A stretch of DNA of 21,393 nucleotides from positions 1 to 21,393 of the IMG/VR virus record IMGVR_UViG_3300018417_000089. One strand, 5' to 3'. A model generated the notes under the pieces. That model had not been told where the DNA came from and ran no database searches. It saw only the letters and a program-made list of their open reading frames with translations. Positions 2,495 to 21,393 of this stretch are shown piece by piece. The DNA comes from a virus. The position numbers and the translations under genes are program-made. Positions within the stretch are counted from its first letter, which is position 1; the number at the start of each line of letters is the position of its first letter.

Positions 2495-3258
2495 TGTCTA
2501 ACTATTTTAAAAGTTTTCCAAAGGCCTTATACTTATTTGGAGATGAAACAACACCAGTTGCATACCAAGATCTATCAACTTTCAATAATTACATTAATTT
2601 GATATCTGAAGAGATTAGTGCATATATTGAATATGAAATACAAGATTTTGAAAGACCTGACAGTTTAGCTTACAAATTGTATGGCAACAGTCAGTACGAC
2701 TGGACATTTTTTTCAATAAATGATAATATTCGCGAAGGTGGTTGGCCTTTATCATTGCAAGATGCATTTGATCTTGCAACACAGAAAAAATACAAAGATT
2801 GGACATGTAAAGTATCATTTAACTTCAACAGTGCTGATAGTGCTGCTACCTTAGCCGATTTATATCCTGTTGGCCAGGAGGTTAAACTAACCGGCGGTTC
2901 AGGTGGTATCATGTATGTCAAATCTAAAAACTTACAGGTTGGGGAGATAACTGTTTATTCTAAAAATTATAGTTTCGACAGTGATTTCAGTGCAAGTTCT
3001 GCACTGTCTTACTCTATGGATTCTAATACATTGCCCCTTGCAAGTGTAGTAAGAGAAGCATACGGCACCTATGAATATCGAAACACAAACAAAGAACCCA
3101 TTGATTATTTTTTTGATACCGAGGTTGTTCCTAAAATACAGGTAACCAATCTTGACAAACTGATAGAAGACAATGACAAACTGAAACGCATTCGCATTAT
3201 CAAAAAAGAACTTATAGGGAATGTAGTCGGGAAATATAAATCGTTAATCGGTAGATAA
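2494..3258 (+). CDS. gp53: Baseplate wedge subunit gp53
   Basis: A 254-aa protein; T4 gp53 is 196 aa. The match is clear at RPDSLAYKLYGNSQYDWTFF (54-73) followed by SINDNIREGGWPLS, corresponding to the 'RPEELANAIYGNPQLYW' block of T4 gp53, and at the C-terminus DNDKLKRIRIIKKELIGNVV (225-244), which matches T4 'ENEKLRQIKIIAKSDI'. gp53 ties wedges to the hub and to each other during dome-to-star assembly. The extra length comes from the middle (about 105-190), a beta-rich, Ser/Ala-rich piece with LYPVGQEVKLTGGSGG that is absent in T4. Starts one base inside the gp48 stop and ends 2 bases before the gp27-like gene. Confidence 0.9.
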   Translation: MSNYFKSFPKALYLFGDETTPVAYQDLSTFNNYINLISEEISAYIEYEIQDFERPDSLAYKLYGNSQYDWTFFSINDNIREGGWPLSLQDAFDLATQKKYKDWTCKVSFNFNSADSAATLADLYPVGQEVKLTGGSGGIMYVKSKNLQVGEITVYSKNYSFDSDFSASSALSYSMDSNTLPLASVVREAYGTYEYRNTNKEPIDYFFDTEVVPKIQVTNLDKLIEDNDKLKRIRIIKKELIGNVVGKYKSLIGR

Positions 3259-3260
3259 AA

Positions 3261-4613: not shown

Positions 4614-5494
4614 ATGTAATAAGACCTATACAAAAACAGTACTATGGTGATGACAACCGATGGTTTCTTGGTTATATCATTAATTCTGCGCCGCCTGCTG
4701 GACTTGAGGGTAGAGTTAAGGTTCGTATCATTGGCGTACACAATCCATCGACCAACGAGGTACCCGAAAAGGATTTACCATGGGCCCAGGTATTAATACC
4801 CACTACCGAGGGTGGTTCATCTGGTATTGGCAGGATACCCAATCTAAACAAGGGTGCATTTGTATTTGGTATATTTCTAGATGGTGTTGCATCACAAATA
4901 CCATTGGTGTTGGGTTCGTTACCTCACACAGAATTACCAACAGCAATTCAATCGGAACGCCGATCAGATTTATTAGACACGTTTAATTATGATCAAAAAC
5001 GTATTCAAAATGTTTCTATATCAACTATTCTTAAAGATGATGAATCAGATGCTGGCATACCTATAAGAAGGCAACAGTCTATGAAATTCTTTATTGACAA
5101 TGGTTATACTGTTATGCATGCCGCCGCAATCACCGGCGCCCTTGAGATTGCATCTCAGTTTAAAACTTATGGTTCAGGTACAACGACTACCAACACAGGC
5201 CCTACGACCGTAGGGATTGCAAACTGGAAGGTAGATTCATCGGTTGGTAATCGTTATGCTGGATTAATAAAATTCGCCAACTCATACAAACCAGCAACAG
5301 ATTGGAAACTATATTCTGTTCAACTACAGTATGTTTTATTTGAATTACGTACTCGTTTCAATCTTGCAAACTCAAAACTCCTTGTCACAGATAATATCAA
5401 AGACGCATCACAGATAGTGAATAAATACTATCTCAAACAAACAACACAAACAGATCAGGCTGCAACAAGAGCCTATGATGAGGTTATGGTATAA
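4610..5494 (+). CDS. gp5: Baseplate hub gp5-like protein: OB-fold plus tail lysozyme-like domain
   Basis: A 294-aa protein; T4 gp5 is 575 aa. Residues 15-105 are the gp5 OB-fold: RWFLGYIINS, GLEGRVKVRIIGVHNPS, DLPWAQVLIPTTEGGSSGIG and GAFVFGIFLDG are its hallmark strands. Residues 155-290 resemble the tail lysozyme domain Phage_lysozyme2 (MKFFIDNGYTVMHAAAITGA, GIANW at 202-206, then a helix ending LQYVLFELRTRF). That family usually has 'GNxxxESG' with the catalytic Glu; here the matching piece is GALEIAS (176-182), putting Ala181 at the Glu position, although E179 lies two residues away. The beta-helical needle of T4 gp5 is absent and is found three genes on. It overlaps gp27 by 4 bases and stops one base before the amidase start. 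Confidence 0.85.
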   Translation: MNVIRPIQKQYYGDDNRWFLGYIINSAPPAGLEGRVKVRIIGVHNPSTNEVPEKDLPWAQVLIPTTEGGSSGIGRIPNLNKGAFVFGIFLDGVASQIPLVLGSLPHTELPTAIQSERRSDLLDTFNYDQKRIQNVSISTILKDDESDAGIPIRRQQSMKFFIDNGYTVMHAAAITGALEIASQFKTYGSGTTTTNTGPTTVGIANWKVDSSVGNRYAGLIKFANSYKPATDWKLYSVQLQYVLFELRTRFNLANSKLLVTDNIKDASQIVNKYYLKQTTQTDQAATRAYDEVMV

Positions 5495-5495
5495 T

Positions 5496-7460
5496 ATGGC
5501 TGAAATTGTTGATCCCAAGACTGGAAAAGTTAGAAATGTTTCTCAACGAAAAGCTAACAGTCTTTCCGAGACATACTCCGAAGAAATCAAAAAGACGGTC
5601 TCCCAAGAGGCCAAAAGTATTTCGGACAAAGGTTTAAATAAAACTGCCGCTGATGCTGCCGAATCATTCAAAAACGCCGGTGCCACAGTTGGTGGACAAA
5701 TATCAGGCCAAGTAAATGCAGGACTTCTTAACCTAGAATCCAAGGTTGATGGTTATAAACAAGAACTCACAGATGCCAAAGATACTGTCACAGGTATATT
5801 AGAAGGTGATGCCGCTGCAATTGATAATCTAAAAACAGATATTGTCAATTCTGCCATGTCTGCCATCAGTTCAAAACTAGGAACCAAAGTCACAATTGAA
5901 TTCTCTGAACCAGATTCAGACACTGGTATTGTAACACCCATCACCGCCTCTCTTAATGCAGAAAACAATGGTGCAGATACTATCGCCGGAGTACTTGCAA
6001 TCATCACTGGTTTGGGTATATCTGCTGATGGATTTGCAAATAACTTTGAAGGAGAATTACAGAATGCTCTGGGTGTTAATAGTCCGGAAGGCCTTGTGTC
6101 TGTAACAGATAAAATCAAAGATAAAGTTGGTGCATTCACATCCACAACTATTAATCAATTATCAACAGATGCCATTACCTCAGTCACCAATGAACTCAAA
6201 CAAACCGTAAACAATTCCTTGGCATCTGGAAATGCTAATATCAATAAGTCAATTACCTATATTTCTTCCGTAAGTGACGGAGGAACAGGCAATCCTCCAA
6301 CCACTACAACCACCACCGTTCAAACCAACGTGGGAGGAGGACTCACTACATATACAGATTCAGCAGAGTTTAATCTCGCTATAGGTAAACAAGACTCAGA
6401 CGGTCTCTTAGATATTGCCAAACTTGTCACAAAAGATATTGAAACTAAAATCAACCCAACCAAACTAAAAACCAGTCTGTCAGAACTCTCAAACAATACC
6501 CAAGACGGTGACACAATACTATCATCAGTTAATAACGCCGAACAGACAAGATCAGACTATTCTATAAACGTTGAAAGATATAAAGGAATAGTTTCAAACA
6601 GAGTGGCGGGAGGTTCTTCATTGGGCGTGGTGCAGGGACTGTCTCTCAAAACGCTGACAACAATCCGTCAAACGGTCAAAAACGTTGCACCCAAACTCTC
6701 AGATGCTGAAGTAGAAAATCTCATTGCATTATCGCAGGGAGACGCCGTTGACATGTCAAATGCTATCAAATTACTTCAAGACAACACAGATCTTACATAC
6801 AAAGAGGCACAAAGATTTCTTAAATCGATTGACACGACGATCACCAATTCGACGAGATTACCGCCAGACACTGTGATTCTCTCTGAACCATATGTTATTG
6901 GGAGTTATTCAAAGAATTGGAACAAGGGGTTGAATGATCCAGTATTTCCTTACATTTCATCCACTGCAGAACTGCAAGCTGAGATTGCGATCATTGAGAA
7001 GTCTCGAACTGTCGACAAAGTTATTGTGCATTGGACTGAGACACACACGAACAAGAATATTGGTAGTGAAGAGATTAACGAATGGCACCTTAAAGCTGGA
7101 TTAGATGGAATTGGTTATCATTATGTTTGTCGCAGGGATGGATCGTTACAGAGGGGAAGACCGATTAGTTTGGATGGTCAACACACTCCTGACAATGATA
7201 ATGGTACTATTGGGTTTGTATTTGTTGGGGGGATTAATGCACCTACTGGCACACCGAATGAGGAGAACTTTTTATCTTCTCAAAGCTTGACACGATCTCA
7301 GATTAATACTTTTGATCATTTTTGTAGAACTTTGTATAATGTACATCCTGGCATTAAGATTTTTGGACACAATGAAGTAGATGAAACGGGATTAAATGTT
7401 GATCCGGGCTTTGATGTTTCGGATTATGTTTTAACAAGATTTGGAAAAACAAATGACTAA
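5496..7460 (+). CDS. Tail-associated N-acetylmuramoyl-L-alanine amidase
   Basis: A 654-aa protein. ATG 5496 is chosen over an upstream in-frame ATG at 5475 because it lies just after the gp5 stop and has GAGG 12 bases upstream. Residues 1-260 are Ala/Ser/Lys-rich and largely helical, with a hydrophobic stretch TIAGVLAIITGLGIS; then a Pro/Thr linker (about 268-285, NPPTTTTTT); a helical middle; and a C-terminal Amidase_2/PGRP domain (about 490-654). Like T7 lysozyme it has VIVHW (H512), INEWHL, GIGYHYVCRRDG (Y541), IGFVFVGGIN, FGHNE (H625) and DPGFD (D636). H512, H625 and D636 should bind zinc and Y541 is the T7 Tyr46 equivalent. The usual Lys two residues before that Asp is Asn634. It should cut peptide cross-links from glycan during infection. 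Its last 8 bases overlap the spike gene. Confidence 0.85.
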   Translation: MAEIVDPKTGKVRNVSQRKANSLSETYSEEIKKTVSQEAKSISDKGLNKTAADAAESFKNAGATVGGQISGQVNAGLLNLESKVDGYKQELTDAKDTVTGILEGDAAAIDNLKTDIVNSAMSAISSKLGTKVTIEFSEPDSDTGIVTPITASLNAENNGADTIAGVLAIITGLGISADGFANNFEGELQNALGVNSPEGLVSVTDKIKDKVGAFTSTTINQLSTDAITSVTNELKQTVNNSLASGNANINKSITYISSVSDGGTGNPPTTTTTTVQTNVGGGLTTYTDSAEFNLAIGKQDSDGLLDIAKLVTKDIETKINPTKLKTSLSELSNNTQDGDTILSSVNNAEQTRSDYSINVERYKGIVSNRVAGGSSLGVVQGLSLKTLTTIRQTVKNVAPKLSDAEVENLIALSQGDAVDMSNAIKLLQDNTDLTYKEAQRFLKSIDTTITNSTRLPPDTVILSEPYVIGSYSKNWNKGLNDPVFPYISSTAELQAEIAIIEKSRTVDKVIVHWTETHTNKNIGSEEINEWHLKAGLDGIGYHYVCRRDGSLQRGRPISLDGQHTPDNDNGTIGFVFVGGINAPTGTPNEENFLSSQSLTRSQINTFDHFCRTLYNVHPGIKIFGHNEVDETGLNVDPGFDVSDYVLTRFGKTND

Positions 7461-8901
7461 TACAGTTGATGATATTGCGGGCAGGAAAAAATACCTAAAT
7501 GAAGGTGCTGAAGATACTCAGGGAGTACCAAGGGAGGGTATGAGCGATCCTACGGGAGAATATCCTAAACGGGATTATTTCTTTGGTAGTAGTGTGAATA
7601 AAGCTGCAGTGGGCGCAAAGGTGAATAATCTTGCACTTGGTGGTAGCGAACTTGGTATTGATTTAGATTTACCACCCCAGAAACCTAGTGAATATCCGTT
7701 TAATCAGGTACAAGAAACTCAGAGTGGTCATGTTATTGAAATAGATGATACGCCTGGCGGAGAAAGGGTGTTAATAAAACATCGCACTGGTGCAGGAATG
7801 GAATTACGAGCAGATGGATCTGTTTTAATATCATCTAAGAACCAAAGTGTTACGGTTACTGGTGGCGATGCCACAGTTATTGTAGAGGGTGAGGGAAATT
7901 TAATCTACAAAGGTGACGTTAATCTAAGGGTAGCTGGAGATTTCAATGTTGATGTTGATGGCAACTATAATCTAGAAATTGCCGGTGATAAAATTGAGAA
8001 TATTAAAGGAAGACATAATAAGAAAGTTTTTCGGGATGTAAATGTTGACATTCATGGAAGTCGTGTTAGTAAGACAATTGGAGCTATAGCAGAAACTACT
8101 TTAACACGTTATGACGTACTTGTCAAGGGCCCCGCGAATTATAGAAGTACTGGTACTACAGAAATTACTGGCAGTAATCTAATTACTACAGCAGTTAATG
8201 AATGGACAGCTGCTGCGAGTACTGCAAATATTACCGCCAGACATATTTCTATGATAGGACATAAAGGAACTATTGGGGGACCATTGATTGATTATTATGG
8301 CAAGACATATGGGGGTTTGCCCGGTGCTGTAACGAATATTGCGACCTTCTATGGGGCGCTCGTAGGACGCGCCACAGAGGCGTTACATGCAGACTATAGT
8401 ATGTACTCGGAAATGTCTGGATACGCCGTTGGCGCGGTTCAGGCAGCGTCTGCGGTTAGCTTAGGAGGAACAGCACCAGTACCAAAACCACCCAAACCAG
8501 GAATTATGCCATATACCCCATTGCCTCAAACAGCACCATTACCAGCACCTCCTATAGTAGAATTAATGTTGGCCACAAGTTCTTATGGAGTACGTAATGT
8601 AGAGATAGATCCTTTGTTACGAGAAAAAATGGAGAAGAACGATGAGTATGCAGAACTGTTTAATTTTGACCCAGATATACATGAAATCAGATCAAAACTA
8701 AGAAGTCCTGCTAATCTTAATAACAGCAAGTTCACATCATACTTGGTAAGTGAAAATTTACTGAACAAAGATTTTGCCAAGACGCTTCCTTCTAATATAG
8801 GAAGATCTGCAAATAAAACTGGTACTATACGATTTGGTGTAGAGTTATTAGGAAACAACCCTATTGATAATAGAAGTAAACGTTTTAAGGTAACAAAATG
8901 A
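7453..8901 (+). CDS. Beta-helical central spike protein (gp5 C-terminal/VgrG-like)
   Basis: A 482-aa protein. ATG 7453 is preferred over TTG 7441 because GGA stands 8 bases before it and it gives the ATGACTAA overlap with the amidase stop. From residue 84, the string NQVQETQSGHVIEIDDTPGG leads into RVLIKH and GMELRADGSVLISS, the entry of gp5/VgrG needles. Glycines then recur every eight residues (162, 170, 178, 186, 202, 210) in VAG, VDG, IAG, IKG, IHG, IG, the octapeptide repeat that in T4 gp5 winds three chains into a beta-prism. Residues about 340-370 are Pro-rich (VPKPPKPGIMPYTPLPQ) and the last 110 residues are a separate, mixed domain. It would be the needle attached to the OB-fold hub protein. 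No PAAR tip is seen. Confidence 0.8.
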   Translation: MTNTVDDIAGRKKYLNEGAEDTQGVPREGMSDPTGEYPKRDYFFGSSVNKAAVGAKVNNLALGGSELGIDLDLPPQKPSEYPFNQVQETQSGHVIEIDDTPGGERVLIKHRTGAGMELRADGSVLISSKNQSVTVTGGDATVIVEGEGNLIYKGDVNLRVAGDFNVDVDGNYNLEIAGDKIENIKGRHNKKVFRDVNVDIHGSRVSKTIGAIAETTLTRYDVLVKGPANYRSTGTTEITGSNLITTAVNEWTAAASTANITARHISMIGHKGTIGGPLIDYYGKTYGGLPGAVTNIATFYGALVGRATEALHADYSMYSEMSGYAVGAVQAASAVSLGGTAPVPKPPKPGIMPYTPLPQTAPLPAPPIVELMLATSSYGVRNVEIDPLLREKMEKNDEYAELFNFDPDIHEIRSKLRSPANLNNSKFTSYLVSENLLNKDFAKTLPSNIGRSANKTGTIRFGVELLGNNPIDNRSKRFKVTK

Positions 8902-9558: not shown

Positions 9559-10140
9559 ATGGCAATAACTAACGAAGAAGGAAATTTATCGAATAGTCCC
9601 CGCGTGACTATGACTCGTCCCTATTCGGATTTTGATTTAACGTTTAACGCTAGAACAACAACTGATGGAGACGTGTTTAAAAAAACTGATGCAGCTTCTG
9701 TTAAACAAGCGTTAAAGTCTTTGTTATTAACTAATGCTTTTGAGAAACCTTATAGACCTCAGTATGGAGGGAACTTAAGTGGGTTATTATTTGAACCTGC
9801 TGATGAAAATACGGGAGAAGAATTAAGTTCGCGTATAAAGGACGCTATTAATAGGTATGAACCAAGGGTTAAAATACTTAACCTAAAAATTGTTTCGCAA
9901 CCAAATTTGAACAAAATAAAGATTTTGTTGGAGTTTCGTGTTATCTCTACGGGTATAGTAGATGTTCTACAACTCGTATTGGGAGCGGTTGAAGTATGTG
10001 ATCCACCTTACTTAAAGGCACCTCCGACTACAGCTTTTATAGAAGATTATATTCTGACAGAAAGTTTATTAATAATTCGAACCGAATCTGGTTTAAATTT
10101 AATCTTTGATGATGATGAAGATCTATACGAAGACGACTAA
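9559..10140 (+). CDS. gp25: Baseplate wedge subunit gp25
   Basis: A 193-aa protein of the GPW/gp25 family; T4 gp25 is 132 aa. Evidence: RPYSDFDLTF (20-29), VKQALKSLLLTNAFEKPYRP (48-67), GLLFEP (75-80), and the family's EPR signature in RYEPRVKILNL (99-109). gp25 nucleates sheath assembly and, with two gp6 chains, forms the wedge core bundle. About 45 residues beyond the normal fold are added at the C-terminus, reading TESLLIIRTESGLNLIFDDD then all-acidic ending EDLYEDD. It is followed after 18 bases by gp6, which has its own AGGA 9 bases before the start. The ribosome site of gp25 itself is weak (CAGAGCG). Confidence 0.93.
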   Translation: MAITNEEGNLSNSPRVTMTRPYSDFDLTFNARTTTDGDVFKKTDAASVKQALKSLLLTNAFEKPYRPQYGGNLSGLLFEPADENTGEELSSRIKDAINRYEPRVKILNLKIVSQPNLNKIKILLEFRVISTGIVDVLQLVLGAVEVCDPPYLKAPPTTAFIEDYILTESLLIIRTESGLNLIFDDDEDLYEDD

Positions 10141-10158
10141 CATACAGGAAAAGATACG

Positions 10159-11970
10159 ATGGCAACAACAATAAAATCTACAGATTTAGATTTTGATACT
10201 ATAAAAAATAATCTGAAAATTTTTCTGGCACAAAGTCCGGAATTTTCGGACTATAATTTTGAGGCGAGTGGTCTTTCTTCTATATTAGATGTTCTAGCTT
10301 ATAATACACATTATAACGCATTGACGGCAAATTTTGCTTTGAATGAATCTTTTCTGAGTACTGCACAATTAAGAAGCAGTGTTGTGAATCTTGCAAGCAG
10401 TTTAGGTTATAGTGTTGGAAGTCGTACAGCGTCCTGTGCGGTGGTTAATATGTACGTAGTGAATAGTCTTGTACCTGAGAGTATGACCTTACCAGCAGGT
10501 TTTAAATTTACTTCTACCATTAATAATAAGTCCTATACCTTTAAGACAAGGGATACTTTAATAGCAACCAATAACGGTAGTAATCAATATTATTTTCAGT
10601 TAGGCGAAAATCAAAATGTGACTTTATATGAAGGAGTGGAACAAAGGAAAATTTTTATCGCAGGCCCGGCAAACGAAAATGAGACATATGTACTTCCTAC
10701 CACAAATTTAGATCTAGACACTGTACAGGTTCGTGTTTATGCGGATACTAGTACAACCGTCTATACGACTTATACTGCTATTAAAAATGTTGTTAATATA
10801 AACAAAGATTCTACAATTTTTGTGGTGAAAGAAACTCCCAATGGTCAGTATGAGTTAACTTTTGGTAATGGCGCTCGGTTAGGAAAATTTCCCAAAGTTG
10901 GTAATAAGATTGAAGTCTTATATGATCAAGTAGCCGGTCCGGATGCAAATGGAGGAAGAACCTTTACTCCGGTTAATACAATTTTTGATGCGGCAAACAA
11001 TGCTTTGACATTAAATGTTGTAACCGTTGTGGGAAGTATGAGTGGTCAATTAAAAGAACCTATAGCAAGTATTAGAAAAAATGCCCCCTACCTTTATGCT
11101 ACTCAGAACCGAATGGTGACAGCAGCTGATTATTCTTCTCTGGTAAAAAGAAAGTTTAGTAATGTTATTACTGATGTTCAATCGTGGGGTGGGGAAGATA
11201 ATATTCCTCCGGAATATGGTTCAGTTTTTTTGAGTATATTATTTAATACAGATAATCTTGATACTCAGACCGAGACAAAAAATTCTATAATTGATATTGC
11301 AAAAAATTTATCCGTGGCTTCTTTTAATGTGAAATTCCTTGATCCTGTTAGCACATATTTAGAATTACAAACAAGGTTTCAATGGAATCCAAATCTTACA
11401 GGGTTTACTCAAACAGCCATAGAAAAACTTGTTACTAGCGCTACCGAAAAATATTTTAATGATGAATTAACAGGTTTTGATGAATCATTCAGGAAATCGA
11501 ATCTACTAACCATAATAGACGATACAGATCCTTCTATATTGTCTTCAAGAACAGATGTGGTAATGCAGAATCGTTTTATTCCGGAAAGCGGTGTTGTGAG
11601 TTACTCTATTAAATTTCCCACAAGCATTGCTATTCCTGATGATGTTAACTATATTATCGATAGTTCAATCTTTGTCATGTCAAACTCAAATAAAAAAGCA
11701 TTTTTAAGAAACCGATTAAAGTCTTCTATTATAGAAGTTGTGGATGTTCAGACAGGAACGAACCTGTTCGATAATGTGGGAGAATATGATTCTGTTTCGG
11801 GTGTATTAACTTTAAGTAATTTTACCGGAACTTTATCGGGTAACAATGGATATATAAAAATTACGGCAGTGCCATCAAACCAGTCTACCCTTAATGCAGT
11901 GCGTAATAATCTTATAACGTTTGATGCCACGGCTTCAACTAGTACTGCAATTATTACAGATACCTTATAA
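10159..11970 (+). CDS. gp6: Baseplate wedge subunit gp6 (gpJ-like)
   Basis: A 603-aa protein; T4 gp6 is 660 aa. The N-terminal block is the strong family mark: IKNNLKIFLAQSPEFSDYNF (15-34), GLSSILDVLAYNTHYNALTA (38-57), NFALNESFLSTAQLRSSV and NLASSLGYS. A middle beta part includes ELTFGNGARLGKFP and a gpJ-type domain, RKNAPYLYATQNRMVTAADY, then SLVKRKFSNVITDVQSWGGE, the usual piece in which the chain enters the wedge core. gp6 dimers form the inner ring that holds the six wedges together and drives the hexagon-to-star change. The stop codon lies inside the next late promoter (11966-11973). Confidence 0.93.
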   Translation: MATTIKSTDLDFDTIKNNLKIFLAQSPEFSDYNFEASGLSSILDVLAYNTHYNALTANFALNESFLSTAQLRSSVVNLASSLGYSVGSRTASCAVVNMYVVNSLVPESMTLPAGFKFTSTINNKSYTFKTRDTLIATNNGSNQYYFQLGENQNVTLYEGVEQRKIFIAGPANENETYVLPTTNLDLDTVQVRVYADTSTTVYTTYTAIKNVVNINKDSTIFVVKETPNGQYELTFGNGARLGKFPKVGNKIEVLYDQVAGPDANGGRTFTPVNTIFDAANNALTLNVVTVVGSMSGQLKEPIASIRKNAPYLYATQNRMVTAADYSSLVKRKFSNVITDVQSWGGEDNIPPEYGSVFLSILFNTDNLDTQTETKNSIIDIAKNLSVASFNVKFLDPVSTYLELQTRFQWNPNLTGFTQTAIEKLVTSATEKYFNDELTGFDESFRKSNLLTIIDDTDPSILSSRTDVVMQNRFIPESGVVSYSIKFPTSIAIPDDVNYIIDSSIFVMSNSNKKAFLRNRLKSSIIEVVDVQTGTNLFDNVGEYDSVSGVLTLSNFTGTLSGNNGYIKITAVPSNQSTLNAVRNNLITFDATASTSTAIITDTL

Positions 11971-11973
11971 ATA
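11966..11973 (+). promoter_or_regulatory. T4-type late promoter for gp8 and downstream genes
   Basis: Perfect TATAAATA; its bases 3-5 are the TAA stop of gp6. It ends 25 bases before the gp8 ATG. Followed by AGAACAGTTAAC, similar to the sequence after the 9526 promoter. Confidence 0.85.
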
Positions 11974-11998
11974 AGAACAGTTAACTAAGAGAATAAAG

Positions 11999-13354
11999 AT
12001 GACCTCATCCGTGACAGATAATTTTAAACGACACTTACTCAATGAATTTAAGAATGAAATTGATGGTAGTGATGTTCAATACTATATGGGTCTAGCACGA
12101 AGCGACAATTTTGTGGTTGGGGAAGACCAATCTTCTCTGTATTTTCAGTCTCAGTTAAGACATACTATGCAGAGTGTGAAAATTTTATCCTCTAACTCTT
12201 TTGTTGTTCCTCACATACCGTGGTCTAGCGGTGTTAGTTATAGTCAGTATGATGAGGCTGATTTGAATACTAATTTCTATGTGGTCAATTCATCCAATGA
12301 AGTGTTTGTCTGTATTCAGACCGGCAAAGTTGCGGATGGCACCATCAGACCAAGTACCGTTGAACCAACTTCGGGTTCGTTAGCATCTAGTTTTAAAACT
12401 TCTGATGGATACATCTGGAGACAGGTTGCAATGTTAAGTAATGTTGCAATATCAAATTTTTTAACCTCAGATTGGATGCCAATTAAAACGATTGTTGATC
12501 AATCTCCCAACTTATCCATTCCTCAAGATTCCGATCAGAGAGACTTACAAAATCTTGCGGTTCCGGGCGAGATCATAAATTTAGTTATAGACAGTGGAGG
12601 CACTGGTTACACTACAGCTCCTACAATTACTATTACAGGTAACGGTTCGAGTGCAAGTTTTACATGCAATATCAATGCGGGTAAAATTGTGCGGATTAAT
12701 ATTGATTCCGACGACAATGGTATTATTAGTCACGGTAGTGGTTATGACTATGCGTCCGTAGTATTGTCAGATGGTGATGCAGTCATAAGACCAGTAATTG
12801 GATCTCCTGATGGTATTAACGCTGACCCCATAAAAACTTTAAAAGCTAAATCATTAATGGTTCAAGCGGATTTTGTGGGGAGTGAAAATAACACCATTCA
12901 AGCGAATTCAGAATTCAATCAGATGTTCTTACTAAAAGATCCCAAACAATATGGTAGTTCGTCTGCATTTGTTGGTAATACAGGCAATGCACTAAAAAGT
13001 TTTACGGTCTCTTCTGTTATTGGAGATTGGAACGATAACAATATGATGTTCTCAGATCTTGTTGGAGGAACAAAAAAAGGTAAGGTTTTTTATTATTCCG
13101 GAAACACCCTTTATTATTATCAGGACGAAGAAACTGGATTTAACTCATTTGAAACTGGGGCCATCGTATCAGTAAACAATGCGGGAATTACCGCAACAGT
13201 TGATGCGATTATAAATCCAGATATTGATGCATATTCAGGTGATATTTTGTACATAAATAACATAAACACAGATTTAACAAGCAACGAAACTTTAGGAATT
13301 ACTAGAGTTTCAACACAAACCGAAGACACCAAAGTTATTATTCAGTTAGGATAA
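11999..13354 (+). CDS. gp8: Baseplate wedge subunit gp8-like
   Basis: A 451-aa protein; T4 gp8 is 334 aa. Similar order to gp8: an N-terminal helix (FKRHLLNEFKNEI), YYMGLARSDNF (28-38) like T4 'IFITFGRSEPW', HTMQSVKILSSNSFVVPHIPWSSGVSYS in pieces (55-82), FYVVNSSNEVFVCIQ (93-107) like 'IVVCNSAPYN...VYRCL', EPTSGS, and DGYIWRQVAML (136-146) like 'GDGYVWEYLF'. A strand-rich insert of about 85 residues from 190 (VIDSGGTGYTTAPTITITGN, later GSGYDYASVVL) is the common GxGYxxAPTVTITG repeat and is not in T4 gp8. gp8 dimers link gp10/gp7 and gp6 in the wedge. The stop is 3 bases before the next start, with AGGA inside the stop region. Confidence 0.8.
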   Translation: MTSSVTDNFKRHLLNEFKNEIDGSDVQYYMGLARSDNFVVGEDQSSLYFQSQLRHTMQSVKILSSNSFVVPHIPWSSGVSYSQYDEADLNTNFYVVNSSNEVFVCIQTGKVADGTIRPSTVEPTSGSLASSFKTSDGYIWRQVAMLSNVAISNFLTSDWMPIKTIVDQSPNLSIPQDSDQRDLQNLAVPGEIINLVIDSGGTGYTTAPTITITGNGSSASFTCNINAGKIVRINIDSDDNGIISHGSGYDYASVVLSDGDAVIRPVIGSPDGINADPIKTLKAKSLMVQADFVGSENNTIQANSEFNQMFLLKDPKQYGSSSAFVGNTGNALKSFTVSSVIGDWNDNNMMFSDLVGGTKKGKVFYYSGNTLYYYQDEETGFNSFETGAIVSVNNAGITATVDAIINPDIDAYSGDILYINNINTDLTSNETLGITRVSTQTEDTKVIIQLG

Positions 13355-13357
13355 AAA

Positions 13358-16300
13358 ATGGCAAGCACATTTACGAGTTCAACACTACCGCAATTATATA
13401 AAGATGATTATGATTCAGCTGATAATTATCATCAGATTTTATTTAATTCGGGTAGAGCCCTTCAAGCAAGAGAATTGACACAACTACAAACTTTAATCTA
13501 TGAAGAAATGGGTAGATTTGGTAGTAATGTGTTTAAAGAAGGTTCAGCCGTATCGTTTGGTAACATTGCGATAAACGCTTCCTATGATTTTATTCAGATA
13601 GAAACTGTTACGGGCGGTGCATTTGCAGATATTCCGGTGGGCACTGTTTTCACGGAGGCTGGTTCAAATATTAAGGTTAAAGTTTTACAAGTTTTACCTG
13701 CCGAAACACTTGTAAACCCAGACACCCTGTTTGTAACTTATATTAATGGTGGTGGAACAGCGATAAACGGCACACCTCCGACGGTATCAGTCGGTGGGGA
13801 ATTGCTTGGTGGAAATTTTACTCTTACAGTTCATGAGTCAGGTCAAAATGATGCACCATTTCCAACCGGCCGAGCAGTTAAACTTGATGTCGATCAGGGA
13901 GATTTTTTTGTTATGGGTAGATTTGTGCATTCTAACGCACAATCAATCATTTTATCACCAACATCTCAAATTGTCAACACTATTGTCGGTTTTAAAATAA
14001 TTCAGGAAGTAATTACCGTTAATGATACCCAAGATTTGTACGATAACGCTGGAAGTAGTCCAAATCTTGCGTCACCGGGCGCTGATCGTTATCGAATTCG
14101 ATTAGAATTGGTCGAAAAGGATCCTAATAATGATACTGATACCTTTGTATTTCTTGCTCGGATAGAAAATTCTAAAATTGTTGAGACTGTAGATGTTTTA
14201 GATTCATATAATAAAATTAATGATGTTCTTGCACTAAGAACAGAAGAAGAATCCGGTGACTACATTGTAAATCCGTTTACAATCGGGTTTGATTCAGCGG
14301 ATGCTGAAAATTTAAGCTTGACTATATCAGAAGGTACTGCATATGTCAATGGTTATCGTGTAGAAAACCCATCTCCTACAAAACTTATCGTTCCTCGTTC
14401 TATTGGAGACGGTGAATTGGTCAATAATGACGTTATTCCTGTCACGTATGGAAACTATGTTTTAATTGACAGTACTACAGCGCTCCCAACATTTGATTAT
14501 TCTCAGGTTAATATTTGTTCGGACACTATAGGTTCTAGTGTCATAGGGACCTGTAGAATTCGGGGCGTTGAACCGTCTGGTTCTCAGTTGAAAATGTACT
14601 TATTTGACATTGAAATTAATCCAAATGAAAATTTCAACACTGCTAAGAGTATTACTCAATTTGGCGCTGGTGACACACAACTATTAAACACAAATGGTAC
14701 TTCGGCACAATTATTTGGTTCAACAGATAATGATCTGTTATTCCAGACTTCTAGACCTAGACCAAGTAGTTTTAGTGACATAATCATTACTACACAAAAA
14801 TCTGTTACCAAAATTGCAGAAGTTACTGGCAACACAATCACTCTCGATAATTTGCCTGGAGGTGAAACATATGAAAATTCTTCCCAATGGATAATTGTTG
14901 AGATATCCGGAGCAAACGGACCGGCATTCATACCAACTACTGTCACTGGCATTGGGACAAACGCGGTAACCATATCAGATCCTTTAATTGCCGATGGTGA
15001 AGCGTACCAGATCATACACTATGTTAAAAATTCTTCAGCTACTCAGAAAAGTAAAAGTTTAACAAGCCTTTCCGGATATTTTGATGTGGTATCAGGAGAA
15101 GTAGATTTGGGTCTTCCCGATGTGTCTCAAGTTGAAGTTGTTAAGGTTGTTGGCGCTGGTCCGGATGTTACCACTGGACCAGACTGTTCTGAAAGGTTTA
15201 TTCTTGACGATGGTCAAAGAGACAACTATTACCAAAACGGTAAACTAATATTGAAGGGTGGAGAAACCGATCCTACTCGTGTTTATGTTGAATTTACATA
15301 TTGGGCTCGAGGCGGCATTGGCGGTGCGTTCTATTCACCACAAAATTATTCCGCCTCAACCTATGGTAACATTCCGGATCATGTGTTACAAGATGGTTCT
15401 GTAATCAGTCTGCGTAACTATTTAGATTTTAGACCTGATAAAGATGCGGCCGGAAACTTTTCAAATATTTCCTTTTTACCAACCTCTGGCACTTCAATTA
15501 GTGCTGATGTTACATACCATCTTCCAAGGGCAGATAAAGTTCTTATTACACAAGAAGGTGACTTACAAGTTTTGATGGGGCAACAATCAAGAGATCCTCA
15601 ACTCAAAAAAACTCCGGATAATGCACTAGAACTTTATCAGGTATTGATGAATGCAAATACTATCGATGAAAATGATGTACAAATCAAACCCATCGAACAT
15701 AAACTGTATACTATGGCAGACATTGCAAAACTGGATGACAAAATAGAAAATCTTAAAGAATATACAGAACTTAACATTGCAGAATTGAGAGCTTTCCACA
15801 CACCCAGTCTAGACAGTGCAGGATTAGAACGGCCAGACTCTGGTATCGTAGTAGATAATGGAGAAGATCAAACTGGATCGGCGACGGAAGATGGTGACTA
15901 TTCTGCATCTTTGGATCCTGAAAATCAATTGATCAGACCTATGGTTGATGAAGACAATATTCGTTTGGTTATTGAAACCCTGTCCGGTGTTAATTATGGC
16001 AATAGTAATGTAGTTAAAAAAGGCGATAATGTTTATTTGGGTTATGATTCTGCTGAATGGAAATTCCAAAATTTGGCATCTAGATCTATTAAGGTAAATC
16101 CTTACGGTATGGTTGATAATGTGGGTGTTATTAAACTTTCACCTTCCACTGATGAATGGAAAGAATCTAAAGAAGAAGCAATCAAAGCCGTTGTCGGAAC
16201 TTCTAAACTAGACACCAAACAAGCTTTCTTATGGAACAGCTGGCAATGGAACTGGAAAGGACGAAATGATGAAGATTTGTGGATCAGTGATGATACAAAA

Positions 16301-18799
16301 TCTGGATTCGTTTCTAATGGAATTCGAAGAAGACTTGCCAAAAAAATAAGCGACTCATATAATTCCACACGTTTTAACAATCGGTCTAATCGTGGTTATG
16401 TTCGTAGAGTGGTCGCGAGAGACTCATTAAGAATGAGAATCGGCAATCGTTTTGTAGATGTTGCATTGATTCCTTGGATAAGATCTAGAAAAATCTTTTT
16501 CCATGCCAAAGGATTAACACCTAATACTAAATTTACCCCATTCTTTGATGGTGTTGATGTATCAGCGTGGTGTAAATCAGAAACTTCTTTTGTAGCGTTT
16601 TCTGATAGAAATGATGATCTTGGTAATCAGAACACATACAATTCTTTGACACAACATCCAGAAGGTACTGAGGAGTTAATTTCAAATTCTCAGGGTGAAT
16701 GTATAGGATCATTTTTTATTCCTAACTTAAAACCAGTTTACTATCTTCCAAAGAAATTTCAATCGAGGAGATTACGTAATTCTTATCTAAGATTTAGGGC
16801 TGGTATTCGAGAATTTAAACTTTTGGATATCAATGAGAATGATTGGTCTAAAGCGAACAGTAAGGCTTTTGCTTACTATAGCGTTGTTGGTGCATTAAAC
16901 AACAAAACAAATCATATGTTAACTACACGGGGGTATCAGACCACATTACCTTTGGGATTAGGGTTTTCAAGTTTTCCTTCTGCATATTCTCCACGAGATT
17001 TAAAAAATTCTTTGGATGCTCAAAATGCTTCGATAGGTATAATTAATGCTCAACTAGCGGGTAAGTATAGTCCAATAACCGAACCATTAACTTCGGGACA
17101 ATTAACAACTCTTGACGCTAATGGTGAAATGTCACAAGTGTTATCAGATTACATTAATGTTAACAACAATCAGTACTCTAATAACTATAGTGCACCGAAC
17201 GCTTTACCACAAAACCCGCTTGCACAAACATTTTATGTCGACAATCAATTTGGTGTTGTGTTAACTAAGATATCATTATTCTTTAAGAGTAAGTCGCAAG
17301 ATGATTTACCAGTATCGATACATTTAAGGCCGGTTATTAATGGTAAGCCTTCCAACACTGATATTGTTCCAGATAGTCATGTTTTCAAAAATGCAACTGA
17401 AGTAAATGTCGCAAGTTTCGGTGACGTGTTTACTATGTCTAAAATTAAAAGCGATTATGAAACTGAGTTTGTTTTTGATGAACCTGTATTCTTACAACCT
17501 TGGACAAGTTATGCTGTGGTAATTACTTCACCTTCTGAAGATTATGAAATATTCTCGGCAAAGACCAAGGATTATGTGTTAGGCAACTCTGGTAAAAGTA
17601 TTAGTACTCAGGCCGGTTCTGGGAGTTTATTCTTACCTCAAAATGGTGTTGTCTGGTTAGAAAGTAAAAACCAAGATTTAATGATGCGTTTGGCTCGTGC
17701 ACAGTTTAATATTTCGGGCGGTAGTTTATTCTTGAAAAACGCACCTTTACCCGCAAAACAATTAGAACCCAATCCAATAAGATTAAACGGAACTACTAGT
17801 GTTTATGTTAAAGCTCCATGTCATGGTTTGGCTGTTGGAGATACTGTACAACTTGCTAATTGTGAAGATGTCAGTAATATTACTGCGGCAACATTAAACA
17901 CTACACATATTGTGGATGCCATAGATGCAGATGGTTATCAATTTGTAATTGGTACTACAGCAACTGAATCTGTTAGTGGGGGTGGTGATCAATGTCTCTC
18001 TTCTAGAAACTTGGTATTTGATGTGGTAAATCCAAACATGGAAAGTATTATTCCAAACTTTACTTCACTAGACTATTCTGCGAAGTTTATTTCTGGAGCA
18101 CATGTTTCTCAACCAACGTCAGAAAGGTTTTTGCCTAATGGTTTGGGTGGAGCAATCATCAGTGCGAAATTTGAAAAGATAACACCAGATCAGAACACAG
18201 AATTTGATAAACCCAGAGCAGTCTATAATAGCAGTGTGGTTGATGCCACGAGTCATTTAGGATCAACAACTGCTGGTGATACAGAATCTGTTTATATGAA
18301 AATAGATTTTAAATCCTCTAACGATTATGTGTCTCCAATCTTAGATCTTTCTAGATGTTCTTTAACAGTCGCAGGTGAATGTATTTTTGATGGGAATCAA
18401 ACACCAAGCCTTCATCCGGTTGCAGAAACATCGCCTTCTGGTGGTACAGATGGTCCTAAACATATCACAACTCCTATAACTCTTGAAGTGCCTGGGGTTT
18501 CGATGGATGTTAGAGCCGAAGTTACTGTACCACCTGATGCAAACATTGATTTTTACTACAGAACTGCAACTGCAGATCAGAATATTTCAGAGGTTCCTTG
18601 GAGATATCAACCGCCTGTTAATCCTATTCCCAATTCTACATCGGGTACGGTTCAAGCGCAGTGGTTGCCTGGAGGAAAGAACGGGAGTTTAGATCCATTT
18701 ATGCAATCACAGACCAAGTTTGTAATGCGGGGTCAAGGTAAAGGACCTTCTATCCAATTGGGCACTGGTGGTATTTTGACAAGGATACATGCCGTATAA
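13358..18799 (+). CDS. Large DUF4815-type baseplate/wedge structural protein
   Basis: A 1813-aa protein, the largest gene here. The N-terminus has the DUF4815 mark FNSGRALQARELTQLQTLIY (about 30-49) followed by GRFGSNVFKEGSAVSFG. About 650-815 contain the second mark: GGIGGAFYSP, IPDHVLQDGSVISLRNYLDF, RPDKD, YHLPRADKVLI, then KLYTMADIAKLDDKIENLKE and YTELNIAELRAF. Later parts: a beta-rich middle with WMNSW-like Trp-rich patches (WNSWQWNWKG), a repeat-like domain LAVGDTVQLANCEDVSNITA ... TTHIVDAIDADGYQF (about 1487-1530), and a terminal domain ending GQGKGPSIQLGTGGILTRIH. It sits where T4 has gp7/gp10 relative to gp8, so a gp7-like wedge or gp10-like fibre-base role is likely, but I cannot assign one. 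No signal peptide. Confidence 0.75.
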   Translation: MASTFTSSTLPQLYKDDYDSADNYHQILFNSGRALQARELTQLQTLIYEEMGRFGSNVFKEGSAVSFGNIAINASYDFIQIETVTGGAFADIPVGTVFTEAGSNIKVKVLQVLPAETLVNPDTLFVTYINGGGTAINGTPPTVSVGGELLGGNFTLTVHESGQNDAPFPTGRAVKLDVDQGDFFVMGRFVHSNAQSIILSPTSQIVNTIVGFKIIQEVITVNDTQDLYDNAGSSPNLASPGADRYRIRLELVEKDPNNDTDTFVFLARIENSKIVETVDVLDSYNKINDVLALRTEEESGDYIVNPFTIGFDSADAENLSLTISEGTAYVNGYRVENPSPTKLIVPRSIGDGELVNNDVIPVTYGNYVLIDSTTALPTFDYSQVNICSDTIGSSVIGTCRIRGVEPSGSQLKMYLFDIEINPNENFNTAKSITQFGAGDTQLLNTNGTSAQLFGSTDNDLLFQTSRPRPSSFSDIIITTQKSVTKIAEVTGNTITLDNLPGGETYENSSQWIIVEISGANGPAFIPTTVTGIGTNAVTISDPLIADGEAYQIIHYVKNSSATQKSKSLTSLSGYFDVVSGEVDLGLPDVSQVEVVKVVGAGPDVTTGPDCSERFILDDGQRDNYYQNGKLILKGGETDPTRVYVEFTYWARGGIGGAFYSPQNYSASTYGNIPDHVLQDGSVISLRNYLDFRPDKDAAGNFSNISFLPTSGTSISADVTYHLPRADKVLITQEGDLQVLMGQQSRDPQLKKTPDNALELYQVLMNANTIDENDVQIKPIEHKLYTMADIAKLDDKIENLKEYTELNIAELRAFHTPSLDSAGLERPDSGIVVDNGEDQTGSATEDGDYSASLDPENQLIRPMVDEDNIRLVIETLSGVNYGNSNVVKKGDNVYLGYDSAEWKFQNLASRSIKVNPYGMVDNVGVIKLSPSTDEWKESKEEAIKAVVGTSKLDTKQAFLWNSWQWNWKGRNDEDLWISDDTKSGFVSNGIRRRLAKKISDSYNSTRFNNRSNRGYVRRVVARDSLRMRIGNRFVDVALIPWIRSRKIFFHAKGLTPNTKFTPFFDGVDVSAWCKSETSFVAFSDRNDDLGNQNTYNSLTQHPEGTEELISNSQGECIGSFFIPNLKPVYYLPKKFQSRRLRNSYLRFRAGIREFKLLDINENDWSKANSKAFAYYSVVGALNNKTNHMLTTRGYQTTLPLGLGFSSFPSAYSPRDLKNSLDAQNASIGIINAQLAGKYSPITEPLTSGQLTTLDANGEMSQVLSDYINVNNNQYSNNYSAPNALPQNPLAQTFYVDNQFGVVLTKISLFFKSKSQDDLPVSIHLRPVINGKPSNTDIVPDSHVFKNATEVNVASFGDVFTMSKIKSDYETEFVFDEPVFLQPWTSYAVVITSPSEDYEIFSAKTKDYVLGNSGKSISTQAGSGSLFLPQNGVVWLESKNQDLMMRLARAQFNISGGSLFLKNAPLPAKQLEPNPIRLNGTTSVYVKAPCHGLAVGDTVQLANCEDVSNITAATLNTTHIVDAIDADGYQFVIGTTATESVSGGGDQCLSSRNLVFDVVNPNMESIIPNFTSLDYSAKFISGAHVSQPTSERFLPNGLGGAIISAKFEKITPDQNTEFDKPRAVYNSSVVDATSHLGSTTAGDTESVYMKIDFKSSNDYVSPILDLSRCSLTVAGECIFDGNQTPSLHPVAETSPSGGTDGPKHITTPITLEVPGVSMDVRAEVTVPPDANIDFYYRTATADQNISEVPWRYQPPVNPIPNSTSGTVQAQWLPGGKNGSLDPFMQSQTKFVMRGQGKGPSIQLGTGGILTRIHAV

Positions 18800-18801
18800 T
18801 T

Positions 18802-19035
18802 ATGAAAGAATATCTTGAAGTTTCAGGTCATCCGGGCTTAGTTCGTGATCCAGATAACAACGCGATTTTGTCCGTTGATTTTGAAAAAATCGAACGAGCT
18901 CGAAGACTGAAAAAAGAAAAGCTGACCCAAGAACAAATTCAAAGAACGTTTGACAGTAGATTGAGTTCTCTTGAATCTGATATATCTGAAATTAAAGAGG
19001 TTCTAAATTCCATAGCAAAAAACTTATATAAATAA
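18802..19035 (+). CDS. Small coiled-coil virion-cluster protein, function unknown
   Basis: A 77-aa protein starting 2 bases after the previous stop. The N-terminal half, YLEVSGHPGLVRDPDNNAIL (4-23), is a block I recognise from a short conserved protein of T4-like marine phages, with no assigned role. The second half (about 28-77) is a charged helix with heptad-like spacing, ARRLKKEKLTQEQIQ then LSSLESDISEIKEVLNSIAK, so it should form a coiled coil. Conservation next to structural genes suggests a chaperone or a small structural or assembly part. The next late promoter lies inside its last codons. Confidence 0.7.
   Translation: MKEYLEVSGHPGLVRDPDNNAILSVDFEKIERARRLKKEKLTQEQIQRTFDSRLSSLESDISEIKEVLNSIAKNLYK
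19027..19034 (+). promoter_or_regulatory. T4-type late promoter for the Tyr-repeat structural gene
   Basis: Perfect TATAAATA overlapping the final codons of the 77-aa gene (its TAA stop is 19033-19035). It ends 28 bases before ATG 19063. The region between them (ACACTGATTATAAGTTTTAA) has no clear Shine-Dalgarno sequence. Confidence 0.85.
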
Positions 19036-19062: not shown

Positions 19063-21393
19063 ATGTCTCTTAGACCATTTAAATTTGCCAATGATGCTAC
19101 CAATACGGGTGCAATTAAGCAATTCTCTAAACCTGAACGGCAATATCTTGCCTATAGGACGGGAAAATATCTTACCGATATGGTCGAAGGAGATCCTTCA
19201 ACGCTAACCATTACACCTACAGCAACCACCGTCAACGTTGGTACTTATGTAGACACAATCTATAATCCTGACGTTCCTAGTGAATTTCCGAGAACACGTT
19301 CACGAACATATTACGGTAAAGCTAATTCCTCAGATGATGTTAATAAATTTAGTTATGTGAATCCTGTTACACTACCGTCATTAGTTTATACTGACGATAC
19401 TGTCGAAATAACCGTTACGGTTGATTGTTCTGAGACTCAAAATAGATTTGATGAAATACAATCATCAATTTCGTTTAATACTTCGGCTTCTAATTATAAT
19501 ATAGATTCGATTGTCACTTCTCCTACAGCTACAACAATTGATGATCTATCAGTTTCTTGGGAAAATTTTTCAACTGGATTAACACCACAACAATATTCAG
19601 TAACGTATACACTATCATTTACTAATATTGGTTACATGTTGGTTTCTATTAGTTCATCAGCTTTAGATTCAAACAATGTGCAACCAACATCAACTGATAT
19701 TTACTCTTCTTTTATTAGAGTCGAAAGATCTGATTCGCCGGGATTATCTGAAATACAAACTTCAATTTATCAAGAAAATATGGTGACACCGTTAGAGGAC
19801 GGTGAAAATAAAAGATATCCCATTTATTACGATGTTTACCGTAGAGGGTTGAAAGAAAGTAATAATGTAGAATTGGACAACATGACTGTGGGCGTCCTAA
19901 ACAATATGATGGAAGACGAATTGCCTGGGACATATCGCTTGTCAGCAGATTCGCCTGGTGATGATTGGCAAATTTATTTAGAAAATGTTTTTATTGATAC
20001 AAGATATGATGGAAGTTCGACCGCATATTCTATATGGTTGAGAACAGAATACGAAACAATTCCAGTCCGAACAAATCCTTTAGTAGTTAGACGTGCTGGA
20101 CCTAACAATCGCTTTGATGGTCTTCAAGCGATGAATGATGAACAGATAGATTTTACCTTCGGGGAAAGAGCTAAAAGAATTATTATGGAATCTGGCGTTG
20201 GCACATATCAATTGAGGTCTAGTGAACAAGGCGCACCTACGGATGCTGGCACATGGGTCGCTAGAGGCGTTGCAATTGATACTCGTTTAACATTTAGAGC
20301 GGATGAAGGGTACACTGGATTTGTTGACTATGAAAGAACGTATGACTCAACATATATTGGTGATACCATATATGAAGGAGATTATGAAGGAACATATCTT
20401 GTAGAATATGAAACTGAATATGAATCGACATATTCTACAGAGTATGAAACAGCATTTCAACTTCAGTATACTGGAAACTATTCTACAGATTATGAGGGAC
20501 TATATGAAACAGGTTATTTGAACGAATATTCTGTTGAATATCTTCAAGAATATGGTGCAATTGATTTCGAAGCCTTTGATGGATATGAACCGGATCGTGA
20601 ATTATATCAAGCCGAATATGAAGGTATTATTGACATTGAAAATTATAATGCTGATTATGATGGGTCTCCAGCTGAATATGTTGCTACATATAACGTAGAC
20701 TATAGTGGTGATTATCAAACAGATTATATTGGTGGTTACGAAAGAGACGATTTTGAATTTTATTCTGGAGTGTATATCGGTGATTATTTAACCGAGTTTG
20801 AAGCTTACGATGGTGAATACATTGGTACTTTTGAGATTACTAATTATAATACCGAATTCTTAACATACGAAGTCTTTGGTGGCGAGTACATTGGTACCTA
20901 TGATGGAGAATACATTGGTACGTTTGAGATTACCAATTATAATACCGAATTCTTAACATATGAAAACTTTGGTGGCGAGTACATTGGTACCTATGATGGA
21001 GAATACATTGGTACGTTTGAAACTGCAAATTACAACACTGAATTTTTGACATATGCTGTTTTTGGTGGGGAATATATTGGCACGTTTGAAGGTGAAACAT
21101 ATACGACAGATTTCTTATCTTATACCGAGTTTGCTGGACAATATCTAGGAACTGATTTTGAAGAGTTTTCAATAACTAATTACACTGGTTTTGAAAGTTT
21201 TAGTGGTGACATTATTACAACAGATTTCGAATTTTTCGAATCTACTCCTTATCAAGGCTTCGAATCTTTCACGGGTTCATATACTGGAACTGATTTTGAA
21301 TCTTTTTCAGTCACCAATTATCAAGGCTTCGAATCTTTCACGGGTTCATATACTGGAACTGATTTTGAATCTTTTTCAGTCTCCAATTATCAA
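19063..21393 (+). CDS. Giant Tyr/Gly-repeat virion structural protein, C-terminus beyond window
   Basis: An open frame of 777 codons from ATG 19063 to the last base, with no stop. The start lies 28 bases after a perfect late promoter. Residues 1-70 (MSLRPFKFANDATNTGAIKQ, then ERQYLAYRTGKYLTDM, GTYVDTIYNPDVP) resemble the N-terminus of a large structural protein of marine T4-like phages. About 75-240 look like an Ig-like beta domain. 240-415 form a globular region with RVLN-type strands, including YPIYYDVYRRGLKES, LPGTYRLSADSPGDDWQIYL and a near-repeat RIIMESGVGTYQLRSSEQGA with TWVARGVAIDTR. From residue 417 to the end nearly every third to fifth residue is Tyr or Phe and the rest are mostly Gly, Glu, Asp, Thr, Ser. 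A long fibre or rod on the baseplate or neck is likely; no enzyme motif is seen. Confidence 0.82.
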   Translation, partial: MSLRPFKFANDATNTGAIKQFSKPERQYLAYRTGKYLTDMVEGDPSTLTITPTATTVNVGTYVDTIYNPDVPSEFPRTRSRTYYGKANSSDDVNKFSYVNPVTLPSLVYTDDTVEITVTVDCSETQNRFDEIQSSISFNTSASNYNIDSIVTSPTATTIDDLSVSWENFSTGLTPQQYSVTYTLSFTNIGYMLVSISSSALDSNNVQPTSTDIYSSFIRVERSDSPGLSEIQTSIYQENMVTPLEDGENKRYPIYYDVYRRGLKESNNVELDNMTVGVLNNMMEDELPGTYRLSADSPGDDWQIYLENVFIDTRYDGSSTAYSIWLRTEYETIPVRTNPLVVRRAGPNNRFDGLQAMNDEQIDFTFGERAKRIIMESGVGTYQLRSSEQGAPTDAGTWVARGVAIDTRLTFRADEGYTGFVDYERTYDSTYIGDTIYEGDYEGTYLVEYETEYESTYSTEYETAFQLQYTGNYSTDYEGLYETGYLNEYSVEYLQEYGAIDFEAFDGYEPDRELYQAEYEGIIDIENYNADYDGSPAEYVATYNVDYSGDYQTDYIGGYERDDFEFYSGVYIGDYLTEFEAYDGEYIGTFEITNYNTEFLTYEVFGGEYIGTYDGEYIGTFEITNYNTEFLTYENFGGEYIGTYDGEYIGTFETANYNTEFLTYAVFGGEYIGTFEGETYTTDFLSYTEFAGQYLGTDFEEFSITNYTGFESFSGDIITTDFEFFESTPYQGFESFTGSYTGTDFESFSVTNYQGFESFTGSYTGTDFESFSVSNYQ
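20371..20553 (+). repeat. Fifteen consecutive 4-residue Tyr repeats (12-base period) in the structural gene
   Basis: Codons for residues 437-497 read as an unbroken run of [Tyr/Phe]-x-x-x: YEGD, YEGT, YLVE, YETE, YEST, YSTE, YETA, FQLQ, YTGN, YSTD, YEGL, YETG, YLNE, YSVE, YLQE, then Tyr. The DNA has a loose 12-base period set by TAT. Spacing loosens afterwards but aromatic residues stay frequent. Confidence 0.9.
20812..21090 (+). repeat. Three tandem 93-base (31-aa) repeats
   Basis: Units begin at 20812, 20905 and 20998, each starting with GGT/GGA GAA TAC. The unit is GEYIGTFEITNYNTEFLTY, then two variable residues and FGGEYIGTYD. Units 1 and 2 differ at 6 of 93 bases by hand alignment; unit 3 is more diverged and ends GTFE. 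Reading frame is kept throughout. Confidence 0.93.
21181..21393 (+). repeat. Tandem 69-base (23-aa) repeats running off the window
   Basis: Units begin at 21181, 21250, 21319 and 21388 (last one cut after 6 bases). The second and third differ by a single base (A/T, Thr to Ser) over 69 bases, so they duplicated very recently; the first (YTGFESFSGD...) is diverged but has the same length. Unit: YQGFESFTGSYTGTDFESF, then SV, Thr/Ser and Asn. Confidence 0.92.

Follow-up and report, generated by a model that had tools for sequence, protein, structure and literature searches.

Genomic setting of the aromatic repeat

The window analysed here is the entire 21,393-bp IMG/VR record IMGVR_UViG_3300018417_000089, a fragment. 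Its plus strand carries the wedge genes of a T4-type baseplate at 9559–13354 (gp25-like, gp6-like and phrog_438, the last gp8-like; PHROG and Pfam matches), followed by two structural genes. A DUF4815 protein at 13358–18799 (PF16075, E 5e-50; phrog_358, E 1e-287) is, by gene order, the upstream gene of a conserved block, and a small virion structural protein at 18802–19035 (phrog_473, E 7e-13) precedes the fibre gene in many loci of the family described below. The final plus-strand ORF, at 19063–21393, stays open for 777 aa up to the window end; because the record stops at 21393, inside the gene, the fibre gene is cut, retaining its N-terminal anchor and most of one arm of its shaft. Pfam gave no match for this gene, and PHROGs none that was meaningful. 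The late structural setting proposed in a preliminary description of this DNA is borne out by these upstream genes. Further upstream, at 4610–8901, central-spike functions are apparently spread over three ORFs: 4610–5494, 5475–7460 (amidase-bearing; Amidase_2) and 7441–8901 (weak gp5 OB and beta-helix matches).

The putative outgoing arm of the shaft occupies residues 417–777 (20311–21393, plus strand), where the preliminary description had noted closely spaced Tyr and Phe and almost no Lys, Cys or Pro. This repeat is real, lies in an open frame and far exceeds shuffled controls. Its composition includes 57 Tyr, 34 Phe, 51 Glu, 26 Asp, 42 Gly and 47 Thr, with three Pro and no Lys, Cys, Trp, His or Met. 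The in-phase run of aromatics has a length of 16 (maximum 9 among 5000 shuffles), and aromatic pairs are enriched at spacings of 4 (46 versus 22.5±3.5 in shuffles) and 23 (39 versus 21.3±3.5). Fifteen 4-residue units at residues 437–496 are present as first described, and the period-4 run covers 20371–20562. In the distal half the period shifts, with a 23-residue protein period and tandem DNA repeats of 93 bp (20809–21080) and 69 bp (21249–21393). Extending the repeat beyond the window with a near-identical contig, L003, gives a net charge of −83 over residues 417–840, in agreement with the strongly negative shaft that had been anticipated.

The full gene, whose recovery the preliminary description had advised, was obtained from L003 (99% identical); the same gene is present at 99–100% identity in this contig and in a second, L004. 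In L003 the first reading frame (ORF1, 1019 aa) comprises an N-terminal domain to residue ~416, the repeat to ~836 and a non-repeat domain of ~183 residues. A second frame (ORF2, 508 aa) starts at a TAATG overlap with ORF1, also carries aromatic repeat and ends in the family closing strand, here VETWTLYVRIA. The window's clade thus encodes its shaft in two consecutive genes: ORF1 provides the anchor, one arm and a terminal domain, and ORF2 the other arm and the closing strand, which sits on a separate chain, outside the window. Split genes were found in three contigs (L140, L141 and L142), and the closing strand recurs in ORF2 of L141 and L142. Because these two contigs show the same plan (1040+482 aa and 987+539 aa, respectively) with different junctions, the split is no assembly accident. 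A programmed frameshift between the two ORFs found no support, since the junction varies among the three contigs (the ORFs overlap by 1 base in L140, whereas their starts are separated in L141 and L142) and the frames differ. Nor does the earlier doubt about whether the repeat is translated in frame find support, as the frame is open in the window, L003 and L004 and the two-gene layout recurs in two further contigs. Contrary to the earlier description as a giant protein, ORF1 is not giant by itself.

An undescribed family with a three-module anchor

Relatives were detected in viral contigs with a DNA pattern of five [Y/F]-x-G-x units, which is blind to the N-terminal domain. At least 120 stretches matched, and an N-domain profile was common to 78 repeat ORFs among the matches listed, a set that includes the window's own copies and duplicate records. 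The family occurs in at least about 60 uncultured contigs, and a single record (Phage C48C1) among 50,697 from phages carries it. This agrees with the preliminary description, which pointed to similar repeats elsewhere among phages. The window group aligned with the family N-domain of short members at Prob 100 and E 2.8e-62 (hhalign), and the family profile found domains in the window and L003 at 1e-51 and 3e-23.

Members share one plan, in which an N-domain of three modules is followed by the aromatic-repeat shaft and then by a strand at the C-terminus. The three modules are related and follow the pattern RPLK...KEMSDxEI...RNRI..GIGxYxL..P..GTW...DTR...YLWxKT. In the window gene, module 1 (residues ~1–69; 19063–19269) was delimited by a profile–profile match and family profile matches. 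It is followed by an inserted domain of ~160 residues (residues ~70–229; 19270–19749) that was unaligned in the profile comparison and is without counterpart in most family members; it is peculiar to the window's side and also occurs in L075 and L109. Module 2 (residues ~230–335; 19750–20067), which ends in the strand AYSIWLRT, was assigned from profile matches and the AlphaFold module pattern in two relatives, L095 and L039. Module 3 (residues ~336–416; 20068–20310; GVGTYQLRSSEQGAPTDAGTWVARGVAIDTR) was assigned from profile matches and the L039 model, and its strand continues into the shaft, so that the period-4 repeat starts directly after the anchor.

The family profile returned only weak or composition-type matches from PHROGs and Pfam and nothing credible from the PDB. 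Foldseek at E≤0.001 against the PDB and BFVD gave no match for the family models, which are monomers with flexible arms for which sensitivity is possibly lowered. Cellular genomes yielded no confirmed relative, and searches of the open-access literature on tyrosine or tetrapeptide repeats turned up no description of this family. The protein belongs to an undescribed family of uncultured phages, and the earlier statement that it has no described fold stands across Pfam, PHROGs, PDB and BFVD.

Several apparent relationships were discarded. KVP40 gp34 was unsupported (tblastn E 0.3; hhalign Prob 0.1, E 0.4), matches to S-RIM2 and an Enterococcus phage reflected repeat composition or were unannotated, and the glycofibril chains TLP-4 and OCM3 in the PDB were low-complexity matches to a VTGN query, not to the window protein.

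Gene neighbourhoods point to a tail fibre. Downstream in L003 lie an L-shaped-fibre assembly gene and further tail-fibre genes, and in C48C1 a tail-fibre assembly gene lies directly upstream of the fibre gene. A globular insert in the C48C1 protein (residues 1831–2067) matches a Vibrio phage structural protein (E 4e-19) that is itself encoded beside long-tail-fibre genes. From the upstream baseplate genes, the nearby fibre and assembly genes and this insert match, we infer that the product is a baseplate-anchored tail fibre, perhaps glycosylated. A separate ORF in L003 (18077–22330, at least 1418 aa) is a tail-fibre-like repeat protein with a Pfam Phycobilisome match (2.7e-6, above the curated cut-off) that is perhaps due to chance or to a helical fibre module.

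Evidence for a proposed hairpin-shaped shaft

The anchor itself suggests how the shaft may be arranged. Modules 1 and 2 each close with a strand such as YLWRKT, whereas module 3 lacks one after DTR; a like strand (TVSLWVRTA) instead forms the end of the protein, beyond the whole repeat. AlphaFold2 monomer models were read from strand positions and confidence. For L095 (32 sequences), the N-domain was modelled at pLDDT >86, mostly >90, and the C-terminal strand at 88–97; mid-repeat values were below 50. The short member L039 was modelled over nearly its whole chain (mean pLDDT 86.6, pTM 0.81), with a strand leaving at 239–267, a turn at 268–283 and a strand returning at 284–315. The structure prediction called for in the preliminary description, run here on relatives, produced a hairpin in L039 but left the middle of the longer L095 shaft at low confidence. 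In these models, with pairing read from strand positions rather than coordinates, the C-terminal strand is predicted to sit in an extended hairpin of module 3, with the shaft inserted between the paired strands; a shaft so inserted must return to its base.

Sequence features along the shaft point the same way. The middle of the shaft is marked by a turn motif like V-L-Y-Y-S-G-Y-V-G-G, and in the 23 members with one clear turn motif the lengths of the outgoing (35–293 residues) and return (27–285 residues) arms correlate at r=0.99998. Outgoing minus return length is 8 in 20 of the 23 and 7 or 9 in the other three, the value of 8 depending on the chosen end cuts. When the motif from 12 short members was matched to 41 longer ones, 16 of these had their best match no more than 1 residue from the centre, where chance predicts 0.6 (P=8e-20, a value that assumes independent members, which related sequences are not wholly). 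The aromatic positions are also mirrored: the register i+j=N+8 was best in most irregularly spaced members, above interval-shuffled nulls and with z up to 10.5, while in purely period-4 members N+8 is indistinguishable from N+12. No mirrored signal was seen in several long single-chain members (L057, L015, L025 and C48C1). At N+8, Tyr lies opposite Tyr, and the same strand face also carries the residue two positions further on, which is mostly Gly.

Because the anchor, the position of the shaft between the module 3 strands, the central turn and the matching outward and backward aromatics all fit a hairpin, we consider it likely that the window repeat forms the outgoing arm of a hairpin-shaped, baseplate-anchored tail-fibre shaft from this undescribed family. 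Tandem pairs of hairpin genes, each with its own anchor, occur in L011, L014, L025, L027, L040, L051, L064, L110, L123 and others, which suggests mixed fibres or two fibre types.

Support for the hairpin is good across the family and partial for the window's clade, where we infer part of it. The arms there are roughly equal, at 434/490, 448/464 and 495/521 residues. At the basal end of the shaft, L140, L141 and L142 all mirror best at an offset of +33; the z-score exceeds the null maximum in L140 (5.3 versus 5.0) and lies below it in L141 and L142 (5.4 versus 7), which are nearly identical to each other in this region. Distally the mirrored pattern is absent, and the two arms carry their repeat blocks in the same order. 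At 0.33 nm per residue, an extended beta arm of 434 residues would measure ~143 nm, of the order of the T4 long tail fibre.

The terminal domain of ORF1 varies within the clade. A direct scan with the L003 C-terminal domain found no homologue outside its own contig; L141, reached via the glycosyltransferase search described below, carries one, and the domain is conserved between L140 and L141. In L142 (ORF1 at 2953–5913; 2933–6052 in L141) the terminal domain is unrelated and shorter, at 82 residues, despite very similar anchors and arms in the two contigs. Exchange of a tip module between these C-termini appears likely, and, such exchange being usual for receptor-binding tips, the domain may be one.

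Alternative architectures and known fibres

The main rival reading, above all where the distal octads of the window's clade are concerned, is a trimeric beta-helix that runs one way, as in the T4 gp5 spike, and in which a pair of tetrads would make one octapeptide and the chains would end distally. The C-terminal triple-stranded beta-helix of gp5 does share a short Gly-containing period (8 = 2 × 4), a slender rod and a T4-type tail with the window protein. Octad blocks in L141 (TPTFTGSY and SQTFEGTA) and the same-order distal blocks in the window's clade also speak for such a helix. So do the period-4 VTGN repeats of Synechococcus phage S-RIM2 SWTG_00067 (L126, 10408–16146), which lies at a comparable locus 3′ of the small structural gene and has an x-x-G-x period; they align weakly to gp5 chains (E 0.002–0.18, composition-driven). 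The S-RIM2 protein differs in its long Val/Leu-Thr-Gly-Asn tetrads, aliphatic in place of Tyr/Phe, and in its N-terminus; tblastn did not find the family N-domain in S-RIM2. We regard the gp5-like helix as improbable, since a one-way chain without a central turn leaves the turn, the equal arms, the mirrored register and the C-terminal strand in the anchor hairpin unexplained, and the window's aromatic repeat found no gp5-like match in the PDB.

The beta-solenoid with stacked Tyr ladders, raised as one possibility in the preliminary description, now seems unlikelier still. Regular aromatic spacing is what such a rod would show, and the distal 23- and 31-residue periods could be coils, but neither a central turn nor equal arms would be required. 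The AlphaFold models, with L039 folded as a hairpin and no regular solenoid in either L039 or L095, together with the C-terminal strand in the module 3 hairpin, the turn and the mirrored aromatics, favour an antiparallel beta-hairpin, and no solenoid was matched in the PDB or BFVD at E≤0.001. Least probable of all, and very much so, is an amyloid-like adhesin secreted from infected cells rather than built into the virion. The repeats are beta-prone and rich in Tyr, Gly, Asn and Thr, and pelagimyophages have been reported to carry the curli export genes CsgF and CsgG, with a speculated role in cell capture (PMC7029224). Against this, the gene lies in a baseplate and fibre block and has a structured anchor domain, and CsgG was not matched in 15 records, 14 of them fragments, although four control genomes did match.

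A hairpin shaft would most closely resemble the T4 gp37 needle, located in the distal part of the T4-type fibre, in which the stem (882–931 and 960–1009) is inserted in the collar domain and the tip in the stem (PMC6957217). As in its D10/D11 part, the family's shaft would be an insertion running out and back in two equal arms with a small far tip. The family differs in its arms of up to ~290 residues (possibly more) versus 50, its aromatic tetrads, its N-terminal anchor, the enzyme genes downstream and, in the window's clade, the division of the arms between two genes. The window repeat also has no His among residues 417–777 and so contains no HxH iron sites. A PDB search with the family profile gave no gp37 chain up to E 10, and Foldseek (E≤0.001) did not recover gp37 either; the two would resemble each other in topology, with homology not found.

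The single family member among phage records, WJE88074.1 of Phage C48C1 (Kyanoviridae, OQ984149; annotated as a hypothetical protein), shows 38% N-domain identity and shares the upstream genes, the three downstream genes and the C-terminal closing strand. It differs in its single 3347-aa chain, whose repeats are rich in Arg and which has several globular inserts and no mirrored signal.

A conserved downstream gene block

The fibre gene or genes are followed, in order, by genes for an unknown protein of ~150 aa, a protein of ~240 aa and one of ~220 aa. In the 34 family loci that extend 2.4 kb or more downstream, these were kept in 34, 34 and 32, respectively. The block is present in L003; the window itself stops before it. 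Searching the other way, with the ~240-aa protein as the sole starting point, recovered 31 contigs, several of which are near-identical; each of the 31 carried an aromatic-repeat gene directly upstream with the same neighbours.

The ~240-aa protein is probably a GT-A glycosyltransferase. Its D82-x-D84 (DXD) is invariant in 21 aligned members, and its Pfam matches, to GT2, GT8 and Nucleotid_trans families, are consistent, though weak and below curated cut-offs (PF03407, 5e-4; PF01501, 1.4e-3; PF00535, 2.2e-3). The nearest PDB chains, of glycogenin-1, were not significant (E 0.1) and give a hint of likeness; glycogenin glucosylates a tyrosine. The ~220-aa protein is possibly a 2OG-Fe(II) oxygenase, with an invariant H133-x-N135, conserved H194 and R202, and a phrog_81 match in one member (E 0.004); comparison with six S-RIM2 oxygenases by hhalign was not significant. 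Every aligned member of this family (L003 15812–16495 and relatives) has H-x-N where H-x-D/E is usual, a substitution that an iron-binding oxygenase would not normally carry. Among the phage records, C48C1 alone has the two enzymes, together with the fibre. They are predicted to act on the fibre, though they may have another target.

Proposed model and implications

In the model we propose, the shaft would be a giant antiparallel beta-hairpin with Tyr/Phe against Tyr/Phe across the strands and the small tetrad residue, mostly Gly, on the same face. The anchor would bind the baseplate, several hairpins may pack through aromatic-into-glycine contacts, the exchangeable ORF1 terminal domain would form the distal receptor-binding tip, and the downstream enzymes could modify the shaft, O-glycosylation being one possibility. 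A broader proposal, which we advance tentatively and hold to be rather doubtful, is that these proteins represent a new class of fibre: beta-hairpins of one or two chains, whose arms measure from tens to several hundred residues, with cross-strand Tyr-Tyr and Gly-Gly ladders and strictly matched arm lengths, glycosylated (perhaps on Tyr or Thr) and perhaps hydroxylated by dedicated phage enzymes from the same block.

The fixed gene block predicts enzymatic modification of the fibre; searches of the open-access literature, including work on fibre modification by a glycosyltransferase and a dioxygenase, turned up no account of such a pairing. The hairpin principle may also be useful for designed protein fibres. 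If the equal-arm rule is true, it would be a strong evolutionary constraint, in which a length change on one strand needs a match on the other, and it can be checked in any new genome. On the proposed reading, a shaft fibre, possibly the host-recognition arm, would be identified for uncultured phages that are nearly missing from records and annotation libraries.
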